Positions 28,285 through 38,283 of a stretch of DNA of 64,000 bases are shown here, piece after piece. The DNA is from Candidatus Peregrinibacteria bacterium GW2011_GWF2_39_17 (GTDB lineage Bacteria > Patescibacteriota > Gracilibacteria > UBA1369 > UBA12473). The stretch spans positions 1 to 64,000 of the forward strand of contig LBWM01000004.1 of NCBI GenBank assembly GCA_000993615.1. Reading direction: 5' to 3'. A program made the position numbers and the translations under genes. The stretch's first letter is position 1. Each line of letters opens with the position of its first letter. Under the pieces are notes generated by a model. It made no database searches and was not told the DNA's origin. It saw only the letters and a program-made list of their open reading frames with translations.

Positions 28285-29661
28285 TCAAAACCTAAAGCAT
28301 TTTTCAATTTCAACTCCTTGTGAGGAACCCACAATCACCCCTCGCTCCATCACCACCTCCCCATTCACGATTGTCATAACCGGCCATCCTTTCAATAATC
28401 GACCGGAAAAAACCGACCAACCGCATTTGGTATAACGCGCACCAAAGGAACCATTTCCCACTTTTTGCTCCAAATTCATATTCACAACAACCAAATTAGC
28501 TTTTGTCCCTTCCCTAAAACTTTCCGCTAAAGCATCCTCCCTCAATCGAAAAATCCGTGCCGGTCCTTCGTACATCACTTTTACCACATCCTCCAAATTT
28601 AATTCACCTCGATTTACGGCATCCAACAAAAGCGGCAAACTCGTTTCCAGTCCAGGGACTCCGGATGGCGCCAGCCAATAATTTTGTTGCTTTTCCTGAA
28701 TGGTATGCGGCGCATGATCCGTAGCCACACAATCCACTAATCCACTTTTTATCCCTTCCATAAGCGCCTTACAATCTTCACTAGTTCTAAGCGGCGGATT
28801 CATTTTGGCAAAATTACCCTGTCGCCCCAATTCAGATTCATCCAAAAATAAATGATGCGGAGAAACCTCACACGAAATACGACCGTTTTTAAATTTCACA
28901 AACTCTTCCAATTCAAGCTGAGTACTTAAATGACAAATGTGCAACCTTGTCCCGTGCTTTTTCGCCAGATGCAAAGCATGCTTAATTGCCGAATAAGCCA
29001 CCTTGTTATCTCTAATTTTAGAATGCAAAGTAGGATCATTTTTATTTTCTAAACCTGGATCATCCAGTTTAAGTTGCGCCAAATTTTGCTTCATCAAAGA
29101 TTCATCTTCAGCATGCACACAAATTAATTTATCCGCTTTTCCGGCTTGTGCAAAAATCTCCTCTAGCCATTCAGTCTGATCCACCAATAAATTACCCGTA
29201 GAACTCCCCATATACACCTTCAAAGCTACTGCATCCGATTTTAAATACTCATCAACATTTATTTTTCCATCAGCAAAAATCGTGGCTCCCATATACAATC
29301 CATAATTCACAAAAGCTTTCCCCGAAATCATCTCCCTTTTTTCATCAAGTAAATCCTGGCTCGTAATCGGAGGTAAGGTATTTGGCATATCTAAAATAGT
29401 GGTAATACCTCCTGCTGCAGCGGCTTTTGTGCCTGTTGTCCAATCTTCCTTATATTCACTTCCTGGTGTTCTCAAATGAACATGCGGATCAATCAAGCCT
29501 GGTAAAATAAAAAAATTAGCACAATCGATCACTTTCCCTCCAGTCACAGCTAAATTTGGAGCAATTTTGACAATGATTCCATTCCTAATCAAAACATCAG
29601 CCTTAAACTGATTTAAGCTGGTCACTACTATCCCCCCTTTAAGCAAAAGAGTAGTAATCAT
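28285..29661 (-). CDS. pyrC: Dihydroorotase
   Basis: With the ATG at 29661 the product is 458 residues, a class I dihydroorotase. Metal ligands are visible in LPGLIDPHVHLRTPG (HxH) and CHLSTQ, the carboxylated-lysine region in ALKVYMGSSTG, and the catalytic aspartate in ATDHAPHT. It closes carbamoyl-aspartate to dihydroorotate. A longer frame reaches 29721 but would begin upstream of the extended -10 at 29685-29693 and adds a non-homologous hydrophobic stretch, so I reject it. It is the first gene of the minus-strand pyr cluster. Confidence 0.94.
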   Translation of the reverse strand: MITTLLLKGGIVVTSLNQFKADVLIRNGIIVKIAPNLAVTGGKVIDCANFFILPGLIDPHVHLRTPGSEYKEDWTTGTKAAAAGGITTILDMPNTLPPITSQDLLDEKREMISGKAFVNYGLYMGATIFADGKINVDEYLKSDAVALKVYMGSSTGNLLVDQTEWLEEIFAQAGKADKLICVHAEDESLMKQNLAQLKLDDPGLENKNDPTLHSKIRDNKVAYSAIKHALHLAKKHGTRLHICHLSTQLELEEFVKFKNGRISCEVSPHHLFLDESELGRQGNFAKMNPPLRTSEDCKALMEGIKSGLVDCVATDHAPHTIQEKQQNYWLAPSGVPGLETSLPLLLDAVNRGELNLEDVVKVMYEGPARIFRLREDALAESFREGTKANLVVVNMNLEQKVGNGSFGARYTKCGWSVFSGRLLKGWPVMTIVNGEVVMERGVIVGSSQGVEIEKCFRF

Positions 29662-29684
29662 AAAAAAAATTAAAGAACAATAAC

Positions 29685-29693
29685 AATATAGCA
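29685..29693 (-). promoter_or_regulatory. Extended -10 upstream of pyrC
   Basis: On the minus strand TGC (29693-29691) directly precedes TATATT (29690-29685). Transcription would start near 29678, about 17 nt before the ATG at 29661. No good -35 is visible, as is usual for extended -10 promoters. Confidence 0.45.
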
Positions 29694-29826
29694 TTGTGCC
29701 TTCTAAAAAGCCCCAAACCATTCAAAGATTATTCTTAAAAATCCCAAGAAGAACTTCGCGAAACAATTATAAACGTCTACATAAAGCCAATAAATTAGTG
29801 TTTGACAAGTTCCTATTTAATTTTCT

Positions 29827-29854
29827 TTGCAAAATAGTACTGTCACCCTATAAG
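29827..29854 (+). promoter_or_regulatory. Candidate promoter of the giant-protein island
   Basis: TTGCAA (29827-29832), a 16-nt spacer and TATAAG (29849-29854). The predicted start is near 29861, about 49 nt upstream of the first small gene. A TTGACA at 29802 has no matching -10 at normal spacing. Confidence 0.4.
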
Positions 29855-29909
29855 ATTCAAAATCCATATTAAGGAACTCTAAACAGCAAGCACCTTAACC
29901 GTGAAAATT

Positions 29910-30122
29910 ATGGCCAACAACAACTCAAAACACCACACCCCTAAATCTCCCTCTGTTTCCTCATCCGACGCCCAACTTTTACTGAAGATTAATAACCTAC
30001 TTCATGAGTATCTTTCTAATCTCGACTTAAGTAAAACAGAAAAAATAAAAATTTTAGCCCAATTTTACAAATTTTTAGGAAAAAAAAATTCAATTTCTAT
30101 TTTACAACCACCTCAATTTTAA
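29910..30122 (+). CDS. Small unknown protein (70 aa) upstream of the giant gene
   Basis: The ATG at 29910 gives 70 residues; a GTG at 29901 would add three. The N-terminal 20 residues are polar and Ser/Lys/His-rich (MANNNSKHHTPKSP). The rest is a predicted amphipathic helical pair (DAQLLLKINNLLHEYLSNLD and KTEKIKILAQFYKFLG). I recognise no family. It is the first of three co-oriented genes (29910, 30161, 30454) with gaps of 38 and 20 nt, inserted between minus-strand pyr genes. It could be a partner or assembly factor for the giant protein, which is inference from position only. Confidence 0.5.
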   Translation: MANNNSKHHTPKSPSVSSSDAQLLLKINNLLHEYLSNLDLSKTEKIKILAQFYKFLGKKNSISILQPPQF

Positions 30123-30160
30123 AAAACTCAATCCTTTTTTAAGTCACTAATTTTATTTCG

Positions 30161-30433
30161 ATGCAATCAAGCCAATTAACCAATCCTACCCTGCATCGTC
30201 AATTTTGGGTTTTTACAAATGAAATTTTAGAAACCTTCCTCTCCACCACCATTCTTTCTAATCTAGAAAAAAACGGTATTCGCCTAAAAACGCACATCTT
30301 TTTCGAAGAAAATTATCGCCTTAACACAATTTACCTCCATCTTCACGAATATTTTCGCAGTCACCCCAAATTGTGTTTTTTACTTGAACCGCTTAACCAA
30401 TACTACCAACAAACCCTCAAAAACCCTCTCTAA
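30161..30433 (+). CDS. Small unknown protein (90 aa) upstream of the giant gene
   Basis: A 90-residue protein, rich in aromatic residues and His, predicted mostly helical (FWVFTNEILETFLSTTILSN near the start, YRLNTIYLHLHEYFRSHP later). There is no signal peptide and no known motif. It lies 38 nt after the 70-residue gene and 20 nt before the 2288-residue gene. The tight spacing suggests one transcript and a shared role, but nothing in the sequence defines it. Confidence 0.55.
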   Translation: MQSSQLTNPTLHRQFWVFTNEILETFLSTTILSNLEKNGIRLKTHIFFEENYRLNTIYLHLHEYFRSHPKLCFLLEPLNQYYQQTLKNPL

Positions 30434-30453
30434 TTTAGATTTAAAATTTCTCC

Positions 30454-33400
30454 ATGGTAAATCAACCAGCCTACCAACTCGATTATTCATCACTTAACGT
30501 TCAAATTGCTGAATTTAAAAGAATAGCTGAAGTTTATGCTCGATCAAGCATTGATGATTCCGGCGTTTCGCAATCCTTAAGTACGACTGTCAACGCTATT
30601 CTCGCCTTACCTAACAACATTTCCGCTGATCTACCCTTTAACCAAATTACTGGCGTTGAAAAAACACTTAAGGATGCAGAAAAACTTTTTAGGGCTTATG
30701 GAAAAGAAGAGATAGGAAAAATGCTAAATGAAATAGCACCCTCAAGAACCTTTCGCGCCCTAGCTGGGACAGCGCAATTCGAAAAAATATTATCCACTCT
30801 TAAAGGCCAAAGCATAGAAGTTAACGGTAAACCAACAACCATTGATAATGCCCATATTTATGCCTTAACACGTTTTAACGTTTCTATTGGAAACCCAATC
30901 GCAAATCCAAAATCCTTTGAATTATTCATGAAAAGCCTTCTGGGAGGCGTAGACATTAGAGAGCTACGGCATATTAGGGACATTCTTTTACCGGATGACC
31001 AAGTAAACTACGAAGAAATTACAGCCCTTCAAAAAGACATTTTAAAGCTTGAAAAAGCCTTCCCTAAAACATCCGAAGATCAAGAAGAACTATTACAAAA
31101 AAAAGGACAATTAAAGGCGGCTCAAGAAAAAATCAAAAAAAATCAGAAAAAAAGAAAAACCCTAAAAACAACTTTTGATAAAATTACTGGTAGCCTCCAC
31201 GCAATGGCCACCACTCGAGGGTACACCACCAAAAAAGAAATCCAAGAATTTGTTCAAGGAAGTTTTACATCTCCTGAATTAAGAGGTGCAACCGGCCTAA
31301 CTGCCAGTGTCATCAATGGCAATACCCAAACCGCAATTCGAATCCTTAAAGACCAACTTTTTCGCAAAACCACTCACGAAACTAAAACCGGCGTAAAACT
31401 AGCTTCTTTTGATCAAAATATTTGGTTTGTAGAAGAAAAAGACCCCCTCATTTCTCATCCACAAGAAGATTCTTCTCAACAAAAACCTGGCATACTCAAT
31501 CAAGATTTTTTTAATCACATGATTGAAAATCCTAATCAATATTGCGTGGTTCAAATGTCTCATATCCCCGCAGGTTTATTTCAAGAACTCGAAGAAACTT
31601 ACCCGGGTCAACACCAGGCAATATTAGGAAGATTAATAATTGTCACCAAAACCAATAAGGGAGAAGCCTCCTCCGCAACCATGGTTTACCATATTCTACC
31701 TGAATTAACTGAACGACTGGATGCTTGTTGCGACCGCGAATTAGGACGTCCCTCTCGCATTCAATTACAACTATATGAATTATTTAGCAAAATATCGATA
31801 GAAGAATTAACAGAACTAAAAGCAGCGGTAGAAAAAAATCGACAAGCTAGAAACCAACAAGGTGCATCGAAAAGCCTAGAAACTTTAAGTGCGCATCCTT
31901 ATTTAGCTGATGAAAGAAGCGAATACAATATGTATAAAGGTTTTGAAAAACTTTTGAATTTTTTTATTGACCTCCACGACCCTCAGAAAAGAGAAACACG
32001 TGCCAAAGAAGAATTAGAAGAATTTGAAAACCAATATCATGCTTATTTCGCGGGCAAAGACGTACCTAAAAAAACCTTTGATTGTGTAGCCATTCCAACC
32101 GGCGGAGGCCGAGAAGAATTAACCATGATTTTTGGATATTGCGCCAAACAGCTACGAGAAACTGCTGCTAATTTTCAGGAAATCGAAACATCTGGGGATC
32201 TTCATCCTAACTCTTCAAAACCTAACGCTGTTTCTTCTATCATAAAAACCATAAAAACCAAAGTACGAGGCCAAACCGGAGAAACAACAAAATCAATTGG
32301 CGTATGTCGCGCTCGTCTCAATGAACTTATTAAAAAACGCTACGGAAGCAATGCTGATGTAACACTAGGCCCGTTACCAATCGACACTGCGAGAAGGATT
32401 GTTGAGGAACGTCAAAATCCTAGCATTGCCACCGACGGGAATTTAGGAAGCAGCATTCTTACAATGGCAGGCGATATGACCGAAATAGGCCTTCGGGAAG
32501 GAGCGACCAAAGTTGAGGGAATCGCCGGAAGTGTTAGAAGCGCCATTGAAGGAATAAGTAGGATGCCTGTATTAAACGGAGTCAGAAAAACCCTCATTGG
32601 AAAATCAAAAAGAAACGGCTTAAATCAAAATGCAAAAAGAACTGAAAGATCTTTCGAAAACCTTGGTGCCCAAACCGCCCCTCTACGTGCGGCTGTTGCC
32701 GGCTTTGCCGCATTACCAGGGATAATTGAAACTGGTGCCGGACGCCTGCGTCAATTTACGCAAACGGAAATTCCTAATTTAGCTCTTATCTTCAATACTC
32801 TAAACGCACTTGAACAAAATACTTTTAAACCAATTCTCGTTAGCTCATTCCAAAGTTGGACCTATGGAGAAGTCGTCAATAAAGACGAATACCCTGATGC
32901 CAACCATTGCGATATACCCATGGACACAGATGGGACACCAAACATCGAAGAATTCGAAACCTACTTACGAAGAAGAAAAGAATCTTTTCAAGGATTTCCC
33001 GAATTATGCGAACTAGATTGCAAAAGACATATTTTTATCTTATGTGATCCTTCCAATCCCAATGGAGCCGTATGGCCCGAGGCCAAAAAACGCCATCTCT
33101 TACAATTAGCTCAAAGATATAAATTTACGATAATCGCGGACACGGCCTACCATAAACTAATTGATAAATCGACAAAAGAAGCTCAAGGGGACCCTATGTT
33201 TACTAGATTCGCCCATAACCAAACCGGATTAGTTGCCCCACTAAGTAAAAAATTGGATTTTCCTCTTTTTGAATCCATCCCTTCCACTAAATGGAATAAC
33301 CCTGATCGCACTGGTTGCATCTGGAGCAACCAAACGAGCTTCAGAGGTTATGTAAGCACTAATCTTTCTGACTCAAGAAATACCATGGCACTCTACCAGG

Positions 33401-36400
33401 AAAATGCCTTAATCCACACCGGTATTGCGGTTAAAAAAGTATGTAAAGCTTTTGAAACCGAAAAAGATCCACTCGAAATATTGACTACCCTGCTAAGTGA
33501 TCAAAAAAACTTTCCGGAAATAAACGACTTAACTCATCGTAATTTTTCCCCAATTGTCCACATGAGATTAATTCGAGCTTTAAACGAAATGAAACAAGTT
33601 GCGAGCCGATCACTACCACAAGAAGTGGCAAAAAATAAAAGAAAATACGCCAGTAAATTAATTACTGAATTAAAAAAAGAAAATCGCCAAGAAAAAATCA
33701 CCCAAATAGATGCCCAAGAGCGTTACAAATGTATCGCAAAAGGCATCGAAGAATTGGCAGAAGAATTTAAAACAAGCTCAGATCCGGAATTAAAAACAAT
33801 TGGAGAAAATCTACGAGAAAGATGCAGTTCACCTCAAGCCGCCTTTTACTTCACCCTTCAACTGGGAGAAAAAAGTGTGGACTCAAACATGAAAGACTTT
33901 CTAGCTGAAATTGCCCAAAAACGTCACATTGGGGTAGTAGGCTGGGAAAAAGGATTAGTTCGGTTTTCATTCGGAGGATTTCTAAATGGCGAAGGGATGG
34001 ATTACGATTTACTCAAATTAAACATAAAAACCGAACTTCGAATCCTCCTAACTTATTGGCAAAAATTCACAAAAAACCGTGAACAAACCAGGGTTCACTC
34101 AAGCCCACAATTAACCGTAGAAGAAGCTGGAGAAAAAGCTCTTGCTGAACTCTTTTCAGGTGATTCTGAAACCCATGTTGCCAAAACCCTTGAGGAAAAA
34201 TCCGAACTTGTAGCACAGCTCATAAAACAATACGGAAAAACCAAAACCATGGCACTTCTGGGTAGCCATTGGAATGCAGATTTGGAAAGTTATATGCATA
34301 AAGTTGAAGCAGACAGCCCCATCACCGTCGTTAATCTTCCGTCTGTAGATTGCGAAGATGTTAATTCTTTAATGGAAAGTGAATTATTCGGAAATTTTTT
34401 CAACCATTACCTTCTAGAGGTAGCCTCTAAAATTCCCGAACTTCAAGGATTAACTCCTGGTCAAATTTTACAAAATTACGGATTTATCGAATTTAAAAAT
34501 TACCACAAAAGTCAACAAATCCCTTCCCACATAAAACCAATTTTAGAAAAAATAGCTCTAGAAATTTACCAACATTGGCACAGTGCGAAAAATATAACTT
34601 TTATTACGCAACCTCATGATTCCAATCAATCCATTAGTGACCGAGCTAATAACCTAAGAATAGCTGTCTATAAATTTTTTGGAGCCTTCGTCAGCCAACA
34701 AAATCAGCCCATTGCTGAAAATTTACGTGATAAATCCATTGCCAAAATGGGTTATACCACTAGGAGGGTAATGGCAAGTAATTCCCTCCCTTCTTGGTCA
34801 CAAAAAATAATCAACCAAACCCCCATGGTGGATAAAGTGACCTCCTTACAGGATTCTCCAAGCGCGCAAGAAGCCTCAACAACTCGCATCGCGGGACATG
34901 ACCAGGGAATTTACAAAAGAGACTCAGAAAAAAATGCCCGAAATTCAGAAGAACACCGATCGCGCCTAGAACAATTTGCCAAAGAATATGACCCAGATAA
35001 GTACACCCTAAAAATGATGCAAATTGGACCAAAACGTGTTCTCCTGGTTTTAAATAAGGGGTTTGAATCCCAACTAATGCAAGATTATCGCTTAAATCCA
35101 CAATATTCCTTAACTGATATTGCCCCGGAAGGATTAGACCAGGTAAATCCGGAGTGTATTTATTTTATGGGTATTCCTGAACATGTTATGGGTAGTTCAA
35201 GTAAAGTTGGTTATTATTTTGACAAAACAGCAAGCGGGGAAAATCTGCCGGTGGGTTGGGTTACTACTGACATGCTGCACGAATATACCGGTTATCTAAA
35301 AAAACCCGCCTTAACTTTGGTTAATGAATTAGTTCTTGATATGGGTGGCCTACCGATTCACGGTTCAGCTTTCACAATTACCACTAAAGACGGCCGAACA
35401 AAAACCGTGGTATTGGGCGGAGACAGTGGCGCCGGAAAATCGGAAACTCTAACCGCCATGACCGAAAAAGTTATTGCCGAATTAGGTGGCCCAGATAACA
35501 TCCAGTACATTGATCTATTAGCTGGAGACATGGTTTCTTTGTGGATTGATGATGATGGAGATTTTAGTGTTATGGGTACAGAACAAGGAGATTTTATGCG
35601 AATGAAAGACATTGGCCAAAATTGGCAAGAACGGTATAAATATTTAATTGATTTTGCTTCATCTACAAACCTGGGCGATGCCAATGCCAGGGAAATGATA
35701 TCTGGTTTATGCGATATTGAAAAATTTACCCATCTTAACAAAGTCGATGTCCTTGCGGCTGTCAATAATTCACAAGAACCTCCGGGCGGAAATCCATACC
35801 AGCTAGTAGAAAATCCCGCTGAATTATTGACCAACACTTTTATTTTGGGGGAACGTATTGAAAAAAAAACCAGTGGCGATCAACCCAATCTTCACCTTTC
35901 ACTTTGGGGAACATATCAAGAAAGCAAATTGACAAACGGGAAAACAGACAATAAATCCCTAGAAAATATTACAACCTACGGCACCACTCTTGATAAATAC
36001 CTGGGGTGGGACACTTTAATCAGCACATCTACTGGTAAAGTAAAAAATGCTTTTTTGCGATTTAACAATATTCCGGGAGGCAGAATAAAAGCCGATCAAA
36101 TGGTCAATGATTTATTTAGAGGCCGAAAAATTACTGAAGATAACGATTGGCGCTTATCTGAACCAACCCAACAAGTAGAAACAACCAGGCTACGTGCGGT
36201 TCAAGCTCGGGAAGCCACTGAGGCAATAAAAAATAAATATGAACAAGCCAAAACAAGTTTTGAAAATATGAAACAAGCTTCTGCCGAAGCTGCGCAAACC
36301 GGCATAGCTGGCAAAGATAACCAAGAAGCTCTAACTCAAACTCAAGAAAATCTAGAAACTCTTGAAAAAGAGATGAATGAACATATAAAAACCCAAAATC

Positions 36401-37320
36401 AAACAGCACAAGAAGCACTAAACGCCGAAAAAGCCGAATACATAACCTGGACAATTCAAGCAATCAAATACGATGCCGTGAACAACCGCTATAACATCAG
36501 TCTTCAAAACGGACAACAAAAAAAACAAGCTACCCTTGATCGAAATATTTTTGACCGCATCTATGTTCCGTATGTCAGTACCTATGGAGGAATCCCTTTT
36601 ATTGATCCTGAAAGAATGAATAAATCACTTGGGCGCTATGCAGACGCAGCCAAAAACAATCCTAACCTTGAAACTGTAGTTGTCTATACACAACTAGGAA
36701 AAGTGGGACGTACCATTTCTGGCCCTATTAATCTTGCGGGAAAAATGGTTGAGGGATTAACTACAAGCCCCAAAGCCGTACAATCCGATCGAAAAAAAAT
36801 AAATCTAATCAGCGAACAGCTAACCGCCAAATACGGCTCAGCCATTTTACAAGGACGGATCGGAGCAACAATCCAACGCACCAATTTAGCACGCCTAAAT
36901 AAACATCGACACCGTGAAGCTTGTGCCATCGATTTCAGCGGCAATGTCATTCCCATGCACACCCCTGGCGGCTTCACCAACCAACGTTCCTCAAAAACAA
37001 ATTTTTCAGATGTCACTTTATTACCTCCGGAATTTAATAGCACCATGGCTTCTATCCTAGATTCTGCCGTCGGATCATCAACGAGAAACCTAACTAAAGA
37101 AACTAGCGAAAAAGCATCACTCACACCATTTCAAAACATTAAAACCTATGATTCAAAAAACGAACTAATTTATCAAATTTTACTTATACAGGGCAAAATG
37201 CGATTAGAAGATACTGAAAGCTTATTTCTAAGAAATCCACAAGATTTATTCATCGCGGAACAAATTGCGGCACGTCTTATGGAAAAAGGAACAGCCCAGA
37301 AAGCACAGGCCTCAGCTTAA
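30454..37320 (+). CDS. Giant 2288-aa protein: PLP aminotransferase-like plus PEPCK/HPr-kinase-like P-loop regions
   Basis: Seen: a 2288-residue uninterrupted frame without membrane segments. Residues 1-540 are helical, with a coiled coil near 185-240. PTGGGREEL at 548-556 recalls the start of aminotransferases. Residues about 775-1200 show fold-type I PLP features: SSFQSW, DPSNPNGA (D865-A872), ADTAYHKL with D896 and Y899, STKW with candidate Schiff-base K946, and GLVRFSFG with R1170. Residues about 1470-1850 resemble PEPCK and HPr kinase: IHGSAF, P-loop GGDSGAGKSE (1655-1664, K1662), LLAGDMVSL with D1692, DDDGDF and GTEQGDFMRMKD. A coiled coil (about 1905-2000) and an unknown C-terminal domain follow. 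Inferred: a cytosolic two-activity enzyme or regulator. The substrate is unknown, and I know of no described protein with this architecture. Confidence 0.75.
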   Translation: MVNQPAYQLDYSSLNVQIAEFKRIAEVYARSSIDDSGVSQSLSTTVNAILALPNNISADLPFNQITGVEKTLKDAEKLFRAYGKEEIGKMLNEIAPSRTFRALAGTAQFEKILSTLKGQSIEVNGKPTTIDNAHIYALTRFNVSIGNPIANPKSFELFMKSLLGGVDIRELRHIRDILLPDDQVNYEEITALQKDILKLEKAFPKTSEDQEELLQKKGQLKAAQEKIKKNQKKRKTLKTTFDKITGSLHAMATTRGYTTKKEIQEFVQGSFTSPELRGATGLTASVINGNTQTAIRILKDQLFRKTTHETKTGVKLASFDQNIWFVEEKDPLISHPQEDSSQQKPGILNQDFFNHMIENPNQYCVVQMSHIPAGLFQELEETYPGQHQAILGRLIIVTKTNKGEASSATMVYHILPELTERLDACCDRELGRPSRIQLQLYELFSKISIEELTELKAAVEKNRQARNQQGASKSLETLSAHPYLADERSEYNMYKGFEKLLNFFIDLHDPQKRETRAKEELEEFENQYHAYFAGKDVPKKTFDCVAIPTGGGREELTMIFGYCAKQLRETAANFQEIETSGDLHPNSSKPNAVSSIIKTIKTKVRGQTGETTKSIGVCRARLNELIKKRYGSNADVTLGPLPIDTARRIVEERQNPSIATDGNLGSSILTMAGDMTEIGLREGATKVEGIAGSVRSAIEGISRMPVLNGVRKTLIGKSKRNGLNQNAKRTERSFENLGAQTAPLRAAVAGFAALPGIIETGAGRLRQFTQTEIPNLALIFNTLNALEQNTFKPILVSSFQSWTYGEVVNKDEYPDANHCDIPMDTDGTPNIEEFETYLRRRKESFQGFPELCELDCKRHIFILCDPSNPNGAVWPEAKKRHLLQLAQRYKFTIIADTAYHKLIDKSTKEAQGDPMFTRFAHNQTGLVAPLSKKLDFPLFESIPSTKWNNPDRTGCIWSNQTSFRGYVSTNLSDSRNTMALYQENALIHTGIAVKKVCKAFETEKDPLEILTTLLSDQKNFPEINDLTHRNFSPIVHMRLIRALNEMKQVASRSLPQEVAKNKRKYASKLITELKKENRQEKITQIDAQERYKCIAKGIEELAEEFKTSSDPELKTIGENLRERCSSPQAAFYFTLQLGEKSVDSNMKDFLAEIAQKRHIGVVGWEKGLVRFSFGGFLNGEGMDYDLLKLNIKTELRILLTYWQKFTKNREQTRVHSSPQLTVEEAGEKALAELFSGDSETHVAKTLEEKSELVAQLIKQYGKTKTMALLGSHWNADLESYMHKVEADSPITVVNLPSVDCEDVNSLMESELFGNFFNHYLLEVASKIPELQGLTPGQILQNYGFIEFKNYHKSQQIPSHIKPILEKIALEIYQHWHSAKNITFITQPHDSNQSISDRANNLRIAVYKFFGAFVSQQNQPIAENLRDKSIAKMGYTTRRVMASNSLPSWSQKIINQTPMVDKVTSLQDSPSAQEASTTRIAGHDQGIYKRDSEKNARNSEEHRSRLEQFAKEYDPDKYTLKMMQIGPKRVLLVLNKGFESQLMQDYRLNPQYSLTDIAPEGLDQVNPECIYFMGIPEHVMGSSSKVGYYFDKTASGENLPVGWVTTDMLHEYTGYLKKPALTLVNELVLDMGGLPIHGSAFTITTKDGRTKTVVLGGDSGAGKSETLTAMTEKVIAELGGPDNIQYIDLLAGDMVSLWIDDDGDFSVMGTEQGDFMRMKDIGQNWQERYKYLIDFASSTNLGDANAREMISGLCDIEKFTHLNKVDVLAAVNNSQEPPGGNPYQLVENPAELLTNTFILGERIEKKTSGDQPNLHLSLWGTYQESKLTNGKTDNKSLENITTYGTTLDKYLGWDTLISTSTGKVKNAFLRFNNIPGGRIKADQMVNDLFRGRKITEDNDWRLSEPTQQVETTRLRAVQAREATEAIKNKYEQAKTSFENMKQASAEAAQTGIAGKDNQEALTQTQENLETLEKEMNEHIKTQNQTAQEALNAEKAEYITWTIQAIKYDAVNNRYNISLQNGQQKKQATLDRNIFDRIYVPYVSTYGGIPFIDPERMNKSLGRYADAAKNNPNLETVVVYTQLGKVGRTISGPINLAGKMVEGLTTSPKAVQSDRKKINLISEQLTAKYGSAILQGRIGATIQRTNLARLNKHRHREACAIDFSGNVIPMHTPGGFTNQRSSKTNFSDVTLLPPEFNSTMASILDSAVGSSTRNLTKETSEKASLTPFQNIKTYDSKNELIYQILLIQGKMRLEDTESLFLRNPQDLFIAEQIAARLMEKGTAQKAQASA

Positions 37321-37353
37321 AAAAACCAAAAACTTTAACTAAAAAATTAACCA

Positions 37354-38283
37354 CTACTCCAGCACCAACTTCAATAACGCCATCCGTACAGCCACACCAT
37401 TAGTAATTTGTTCAAAATATTTAGCGCGCTCATCATCATCCACTTCAACCTTAAGCTGATTGTCAACCCGTGGTAAGGGATCAATAATAATCATTTCTGA
37501 TTTTGCACGCCTTAAAAGTTTAGTCGAAATAGAATACGCCCCACGAAATTTTTCATACTCTCTTAGAGAAGCAAATCTTTCTTCTTGAATGCGCGTATTC
37601 GACAAAACATCCAACTCATCAATCACGGATTCTAAATCTTCGGTCTGCTCAATAGCATGCCCTGCCTCTTTCAAAGAACGAAGTAATCCCTCAGGAAAAT
37701 TCAATTTTTTAGGAGAAACAAAAATAAATCGCGATTGCCCAAAATTTTTCAGCAACTCACATTCGGCATGCACCACCCGACTAAATTTCATATCTCCCAC
37801 CATACCAAAAGTTAAACCATCGAGTCGCTTAAATTTTTTCCAAATCGTATAAACATCCATTAACCCCTGCGTTGGGTGATCCGCTGGCCCATCTCCGGCA
37901 TTAATTACCGGCACATTGGCTCCTTTCGCTAATTCCGCCACCGTCCCCGCCACTGGATGACGCATGGCAATTACATCTACATAAGCACTAACCACTTTCC
38001 CTGTATCATACAATGTCTCTCTTTTCTTAATCGAAGAAGTCTCATTCATCATGGCATTGGAAATCACCTTACCACCTAAACGAAGCATGGCGGCCTCAAA
38101 ACTAAATCTGGTCCTAGTTGATGGCTCAAAAAACAAAGTGGCCAAAATTTTACCTTTCATTATTTCCGATAGCTTTTCTTTTTTAGCATAAGGTTCCATT
38201 TGAGCAGCTTCACGCAAAACATGTTCAATATCTTCTTTTGAAAACTGTTCTGCAGATAAAATATGTTTCCCTTTAAAATTCAT
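37354..38283 (-). CDS. pyrB: Aspartate carbamoyltransferase, catalytic subunit
   Basis: A 309-residue PyrB with the carbamoyl-phosphate motif FFEPSTRTRFSFEAAMLRLGG, and further RHPVAGTVAEL and DGPADHPTQGLMDVYTI. The aspartate-binding end has IIDPLPRVDNQLKVEVDDD. It joins carbamoyl phosphate and aspartate. No pyrI regulatory gene is adjacent. It is on the minus strand, convergent with the giant gene (33 nt apart) and divergent from carA, which supplies its substrate. Confidence 0.96.
   Translation of the reverse strand: MNFKGKHILSAEQFSKEDIEHVLREAAQMEPYAKKEKLSEIMKGKILATLFFEPSTRTRFSFEAAMLRLGGKVISNAMMNETSSIKKRETLYDTGKVVSAYVDVIAMRHPVAGTVAELAKGANVPVINAGDGPADHPTQGLMDVYTIWKKFKRLDGLTFGMVGDMKFSRVVHAECELLKNFGQSRFIFVSPKKLNFPEGLLRSLKEAGHAIEQTEDLESVIDELDVLSNTRIQEERFASLREYEKFRGAYSISTKLLRRAKSEMIIIDPLPRVDNQLKVEVDDDERAKYFEQITNGVAVRMALLKLVLE

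Follow-up and report, generated by a model that had tools for sequence, protein, structure and literature searches.

The locus and its genome

The window (the whole stretch of DNA that was analysed, 64,000 nucleotides) carries a 6.9-kb gene for a protein of 2288 residues, hereafter the giant, in which an aminotransferase (AT)-like region is followed by a region resembling PEP carboxykinase (PEPCK) (Table 1). That the frame is uninterrupted, as a first-pass annotation had claimed, is confirmed. The host genome spans 1.3 Mb and is 98% complete, and its nearest named relatives are Candidatus Peregrinibacteria/Peribacteria MAGs; Patescibacteria of the Peregrinibacteria lineage are among the smallest-genome bacteria known, and the host is both tiny and uncultured.

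The giant sits within a pyrimidine gene cluster, flanked by pyrC and pyrB (window 28285-38283). In a genome of the same family (G001; L186:8022-10256), pyrB and pyrC are adjacent and the giant is missing from between them, so the giant looks inserted at this site. Just upstream of it lies an ORF of 90 residues (window 30161-30433) without a family match, and two of the genomes that carry the giant (G632 and G634) have mutually similar 100-residue ORFs at the same position.

Table 1. Features of the giant gene (window positions) and of its unfused relatives (locus positions)
Feature	Position	Strand	Basis or remark
2288-residue AT-PEPCK giant gene	30454..37320	+	ATG start, single ORF, no internal stop
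N-terminal region, residues 1-600	30454..32253	+	Conserved; AT not recognisable by sequence
Fold-type I AT core, residues 770-990	32761..33423	+	hhalign and Pfam Aminotran_1_2
AT C-terminal small domain, residues 1040-1215, with R1170	33571..34098	+	hhalign
PEPCK-like half, residues 1435-2288	34756..37317	+	Foldseek of a low-confidence model; hhalign to DUF4914-like proteins
PEPCK catalytic core (predicted), residues 1606-1720	35269..35613	+	hhalign; invariant residues
NxR (R1746) and R1801...TSGDQPN (1806-1812)	35674..35889	+	Invariant; PEPCK correspondence by order and motif
Window-specific long helical insertion, residues ~1897-1997	36142..36444	+	Missing from most homologues; long helices in the AlphaFold model
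DUF4914-like stand-alone genes	L174:7021-9405; L178:2374-4641; L200; L201		

A conserved fusion

The first-pass annotation had proposed a search for the same fusion in other Patescibacteria, and whole-genome searches showed that nine further genomes of the host's class carry collinear homologues. Six of these are complete in one frame (G014, G025, G058, G412, G634 and G643; 2043-2207 residues), those of G055 and G640 are split only by contig ends, and an apparent gene split in G632 proved to be a run of N rather than a split gene. It is conceivable that an assembly or gene-calling error joined two neighbouring genes, given that AT and PEPCK genes are neighbours in relatives (see below). However, the homologues align with the window protein from end to end (~30% identity), which argues that the fusion is not an accident of assembly, and the six further complete collinear homologues, with conserved, stop-free linkers in independent assemblies from several genera and families, refute such an error, whose probability we regard as practically nil.

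The giant is under purifying selection: among three close homologues, dN/dS was 0.059-0.063 overall and lowest (0.03-0.04) in the PEPCK core. In the family alignment, W802, D865, N868, D896, Y899, K946, R952 and R1170 are invariant in the AT region, as are Y1611, K1616, K1617, H1636, K1662, D1692, E1710 and R1716 in the PEPCK-like region. No relatives of the giant were found among the IMG/VR viral contigs. In G633, a 2300-residue ORF without a Pfam match (L173:8068-14967, minus strand) lies beside asparaginase and phosphoglycerate mutase genes, and the congeneric G634 carries the giant at that site.

The aminotransferase half

The AT motifs named in the first-pass annotation are all present where it placed them: DPSNPNGA from D865, ADTAYHKL with D896 and Y899, STKW with K946, and GLVRFSFG with R1170. 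Together with W802, N868 and R952 they give the landmarks of a fold-type I AT in the expected order (W802, D865-P-x-N-P, N868, D896, Y899, K946, R952, R1170), in which we take K946 to be the Schiff-base lysine, R1170 the arginine for the alpha-carboxylate and R952 that for the phosphate; an arginine of the R952 type follows the lysine by eight residues in most homologues. In E. coli aspartate AT numbering, the half thus has residues of the W140, N194, D222, Y225, K258, R266 and R386 types, again in order, as in aspartate AT-like members of PF00155.

Profile searches agree with this assignment. The window protein passes the cut-off of Pfam Aminotran_1_2 (PF00155; 26.2 bits vs. 19.7), which matched six of the six AT-region members scanned (best 3e-8). 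The AT core gave hhalign scores of 98-119 (scrambled-column controls, 25 at most); specifically, residues 770-990 scored 98 against stand-alone ATs (E 2e-13; scrambled maximum 20) and residues 1040-1215 scored 46.6 against the AT small domain (E 4e-6; scrambled maximum 22.6). The profile-profile comparison therefore finds a fold-type I AT in residues 770-1215, whereas residues 1-600 show no detectable AT similarity, and residues 100-600 score no better than scrambled controls against AT profiles. These N-terminal residues nevertheless hold invariant columns in the family alignment, namely SIGxP (144-148), YTT (257-259) and PxGGGR (548-553), and SIGxP, YTT and GGGR (from 550) may be the N-terminal motifs of the AT, spread apart by insertions. 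Unlike members of PF00155, the AT half spans ~1200 rather than ~400 residues, is unrecognisable in its first half and cannot be assigned to a subfamily.

The PEPCK-like half

The core of the second half contains GYLKKP (1613-1618), H1636, a P-loop (1655-1664, with K1662), D1692, GTEQGDF (1708-1714) and R1716. Compared with the 27 stand-alone PEPCKs of the class, it reached an hhalign score of 79.6 (E 4.5e-9; scrambled maximum 22), and it is PEPCK, not HPr kinase, that profile-profile comparison finds in residues 1606-1725. The KK pair, histidine, P-loop lysine and metal aspartate follow each other in PEPCK order as the invariant K1616/K1617, H1636, K1662 and D1692, and the blocks GYLKKP-x(17)-HG, GDSGxGKSE, xGD and GTExGDF match the KK, H, P-loop, second D of GDD and EGGC blocks of PEPCK (in E. 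coli PEPCK numbering, Lys212/213, His232 and Asp268/269; Arg333 follows the same numbering). Of the further elements in the first-pass annotation, IHGSAF (H1636), GGDSGAGKSE (1655-1664), LLAGDM (D1692) and DDDGDF...GTEQGDF are where it had put them, but the literal DDDG is not conserved across the family, which keeps D1701 alone.

Later blocks correspond to the C-terminal half of PEPCK by order and motif, with more than 200 residues inserted: R1746 would be the counterpart of SKTxNTR, R1801...TSGDQPN that of GTxxG, and STYxGxPF (2042-2049) follows. Taken by itself the alignment of these blocks to PEPCK is not significant, and the C-terminal ~290 residues were not significant on their own against the PEPCK profile. 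PEPCK_ATP (PF01293) was matched weakly in five of the five kinase-core members scanned (best E 2e-4), and a sequence search of the PDB with the kinase core gave only weak matches, to PEPCK. Since the window protein stays below the PF01293 cut-off (15.1 bits vs. 26.5), we file the second half, on profile evidence, as a divergent member of the PEPCK superfamily and not as a member of PF01293. That is, it shares with PF01293 the order and identity of KK, H, P-loop and the second D of GDD, has GTE-x-GDF in place of EGGC and is collinear in further blocks, while differing from it in the Pfam score, an Arg333 site that lacks a basic residue, a P-loop with GKSE where PF01293 has GKT, the insertion before the C-terminal part and the fusion to an AT.

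Structure prediction, which the first-pass annotation had suggested as a check, was of partial help, as alignments of 5-6 sequences yielded poor AlphaFold models of both halves (pLDDT 52 for the AT half and 48 for the PEPCK half). The top 50 Foldseek matches of the PEPCK-half model were all PEPCK (best E 1e-4), which we count only as agreement because the model is poor and the TM-scores were only 0.1; the AT model had no significant match (best E 0.02). VIA-align found only the window-specific long helix, and PEPCK was not among the matches listed.

These poor models, the very large insertions and the divergence from all curated families would fit a large scaffold or regulatory protein in which one or both halves are pseudoenzymes that keep their ligand-binding pockets. 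We consider this quite improbable, given that the catalytic residues are strictly invariant in both halves at the identity noted above and that the PEPCK core has the lowest dN/dS. Family-wide conservation and the profile comparisons support the two active sites predicted by the first-pass annotation, with matches that lie well beyond chance.

A more serious alternative, which we judge rather unlikely, makes the PEPCK-like half an ATP-dependent kinase whose substrate is not oxaloacetate but an amino or keto acid produced by the AT half, or a protein; it would have retained the nucleotide and metal site and lost the decarboxylating arginine. It is mainly for the missing Arg333 that we keep a different kinase reaction in view: the family alignment of the giant has no conserved basic residue at this position, which is K, R or H in 26 of the 27 stand-alone PEPCKs of the class. 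The first aspartate of GDD is moreover a glycine in the giant (GDD has become xGD), its P-loop has the HPr-kinase form GDSGxGKSE instead of GLSGTGKTT, and the DUF4914-like relatives described below also have GKSE and also lack the arginine. On the other side, the KK motif and the GTExGDF block are PEPCK-like, and true PEPCK is recurrently paired with an AT in the class. HPr kinase/phosphorylase itself shares the P-loop and the HG motif with the giant; we rejected it, as no HPr-kinase family was among the Pfam matches at E up to 1 in five members and as the KK motif separates the PEPCK-like half from HPr kinase. Between the two options left by the first-pass annotation, an aspartate AT with a PEPCK is thus preferred to a kinase for proteins or amino acids, given the KK before the histidine, the uniform PEPCK_ATP matches, the lack of HPr-kinase matches and the recurrent AT-PEPCK pairs. 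A zeta-toxin Pfam match was also rejected, being confined to the P-loop and below the cut-off. Among the stand-alone PEPCKs of the class (loci L082-L115), the residue at the Arg333 motif position is Lys rather than Arg in 22 of 27.

Unfused DUF4914-like relatives

Stand-alone PEPCK relatives resembling DUF4914 occur in four genomes (G641, G646, G649 and G650) that have an asparaginase and lack the giant. They measure 737-795 residues where complete, have no AT part, and carry KK, HG, GQSGMGKSE, GDDM and RFTR in PEPCK order. Their match to PF16260 is only faint (E 0.03), and PF16260 was not among the matches listed for the giant. Against the PEPCK half of the giant they aligned over 264-318 columns with hhalign scores of 40-44 (scrambled maximum 24), and in two of the four genomes (G641 and G649) the asparaginase locus holds such a protein, of 756-795 residues. 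Judging by these motifs and the weak profile match, the DUF4914-like proteins may belong to the PEPCK-like lineage of the giant as a branch without the fusion. Our literature search found no paper on DUF4914, and the relationship gives these proteins a first functional hypothesis. It is also possible, if unlikely, that the PEPCK superfamily has a new branch, made up of the giant and the DUF4914-like proteins, whose phospho-transfer chemistry differs, the fused transaminase supplying the substrate within the chain; the giant would then be a new two-step enzyme rather than a plain combination of aspartate AT and PEPCK.

Gene context

The strongest evidence on the function of the giant is its gene context. 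A type I asparaginase gene directly precedes it in 8 of the 10 genomes, six of which also have glutamate dehydrogenase (GDH) and pyruvate phosphate dikinase (PPDK) within a few kb; in the window genome, the asparaginase lies elsewhere (contig C8), and GDH and PPDK are neighbours on C14. A strong asparaginase is present in all 10 giant genomes, compared with 15 of 343 others. This linkage is strong, but much of it is shared ancestry: genomes that lack the giant can still have the asparaginase-GDH-PPDK block, so the adjacency is partly inherited synteny. No ordinary ATP-type PEPCK scored over the cut-off in the 10 giant genomes. As such a gene is present in just 29 of the 353 genomes, its absence here counts for little; at this base rate, a pattern in which giant and ordinary PEPCK exclude each other is uninformative, and we discarded it. 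In several genomes of the class, asparaginase homologues contain many in-frame TGA codons, as would be expected of TGA-recoding lineages; the giant of the window genome does not need such recoding.

The two activities also occur as neighbouring genes. Of the 29 PEPCK genes that stand alone in the class, 18 have a same-strand AT gene directly beside them. In 15 cases this is a PRK08637-type AT upstream of PEPCK, the order seen in the fusion, and in three it is an AspB-type AT downstream. In G001, of the window's own family, PPDK, GDH, PEPCK and AT form one cluster. These operons resemble the giant in having both activities side by side, mostly AT before PEPCK, but consist of two ordinary-sized genes that are not homologous to it in detail. 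Since two different kinds of AT are involved, one upstream and one downstream of PEPCK, the pairing arose on no fewer than two occasions as neighbouring genes and on one, in the giant, by fusion.

Proposed function

We favour, with a probability of about 0.6, the hypothesis that the giant is a bifunctional enzyme that converts aspartate to oxaloacetate and on to PEP; that one chain probably does so follows from AT and PEPCK being kept as neighbouring genes in relatives. Under this hypothesis, the N-terminal ~1200 residues would be a PLP-dependent, fold-type I, aspartate-type AT enlarged by insertions, and the C-terminal ~850 residues a divergent PEPCK. Asparagine, turned into aspartate by the type I asparaginase, would be a frequent source of substrate; aspartate and 2-oxoglutarate would give oxaloacetate and glutamate at K946, and oxaloacetate with ATP (or GTP) would give PEP and CO2 at the K1616/K1617-H1636-K1662-D1692 site. 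GDH would regenerate 2-oxoglutarate, and PPDK would link PEP with pyruvate and ATP. We infer the activity of both sites, their substrates and any hand-over of oxaloacetate within the chain.

The giant is thus a real and conserved fusion that joins two known kinds of enzyme and has apparently not been described before, and the pathway hypothesis for it is coherent; our literature search found neither an AT-PEPCK (or PEPCK-like) fusion nor a description of the giant. If the hypothesis is right, an enzyme of ~250 kDa links the breakdown of amino acids (Asn, Asp) to PEP, and its fused chain makes the channelling of unstable oxaloacetate directly testable. A published study of Peribacteria reported L-asparaginase and aspartate AT and no PEPCK (PMC4736985), a gap that a divergent, fused PEPCK could fill as a hidden route in Peribacteria-related genomes.

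Finally, the upstream AT of the PEPCK gene pairs (L187, L188, L194-L197 and L100-L114) belongs to NF006388 (PRK08637), which bears the NCBIfam name 'hypothetical protein'; its pairing with PEPCK suggests that the PRK08637-type AT is an aspartate aminotransferase.
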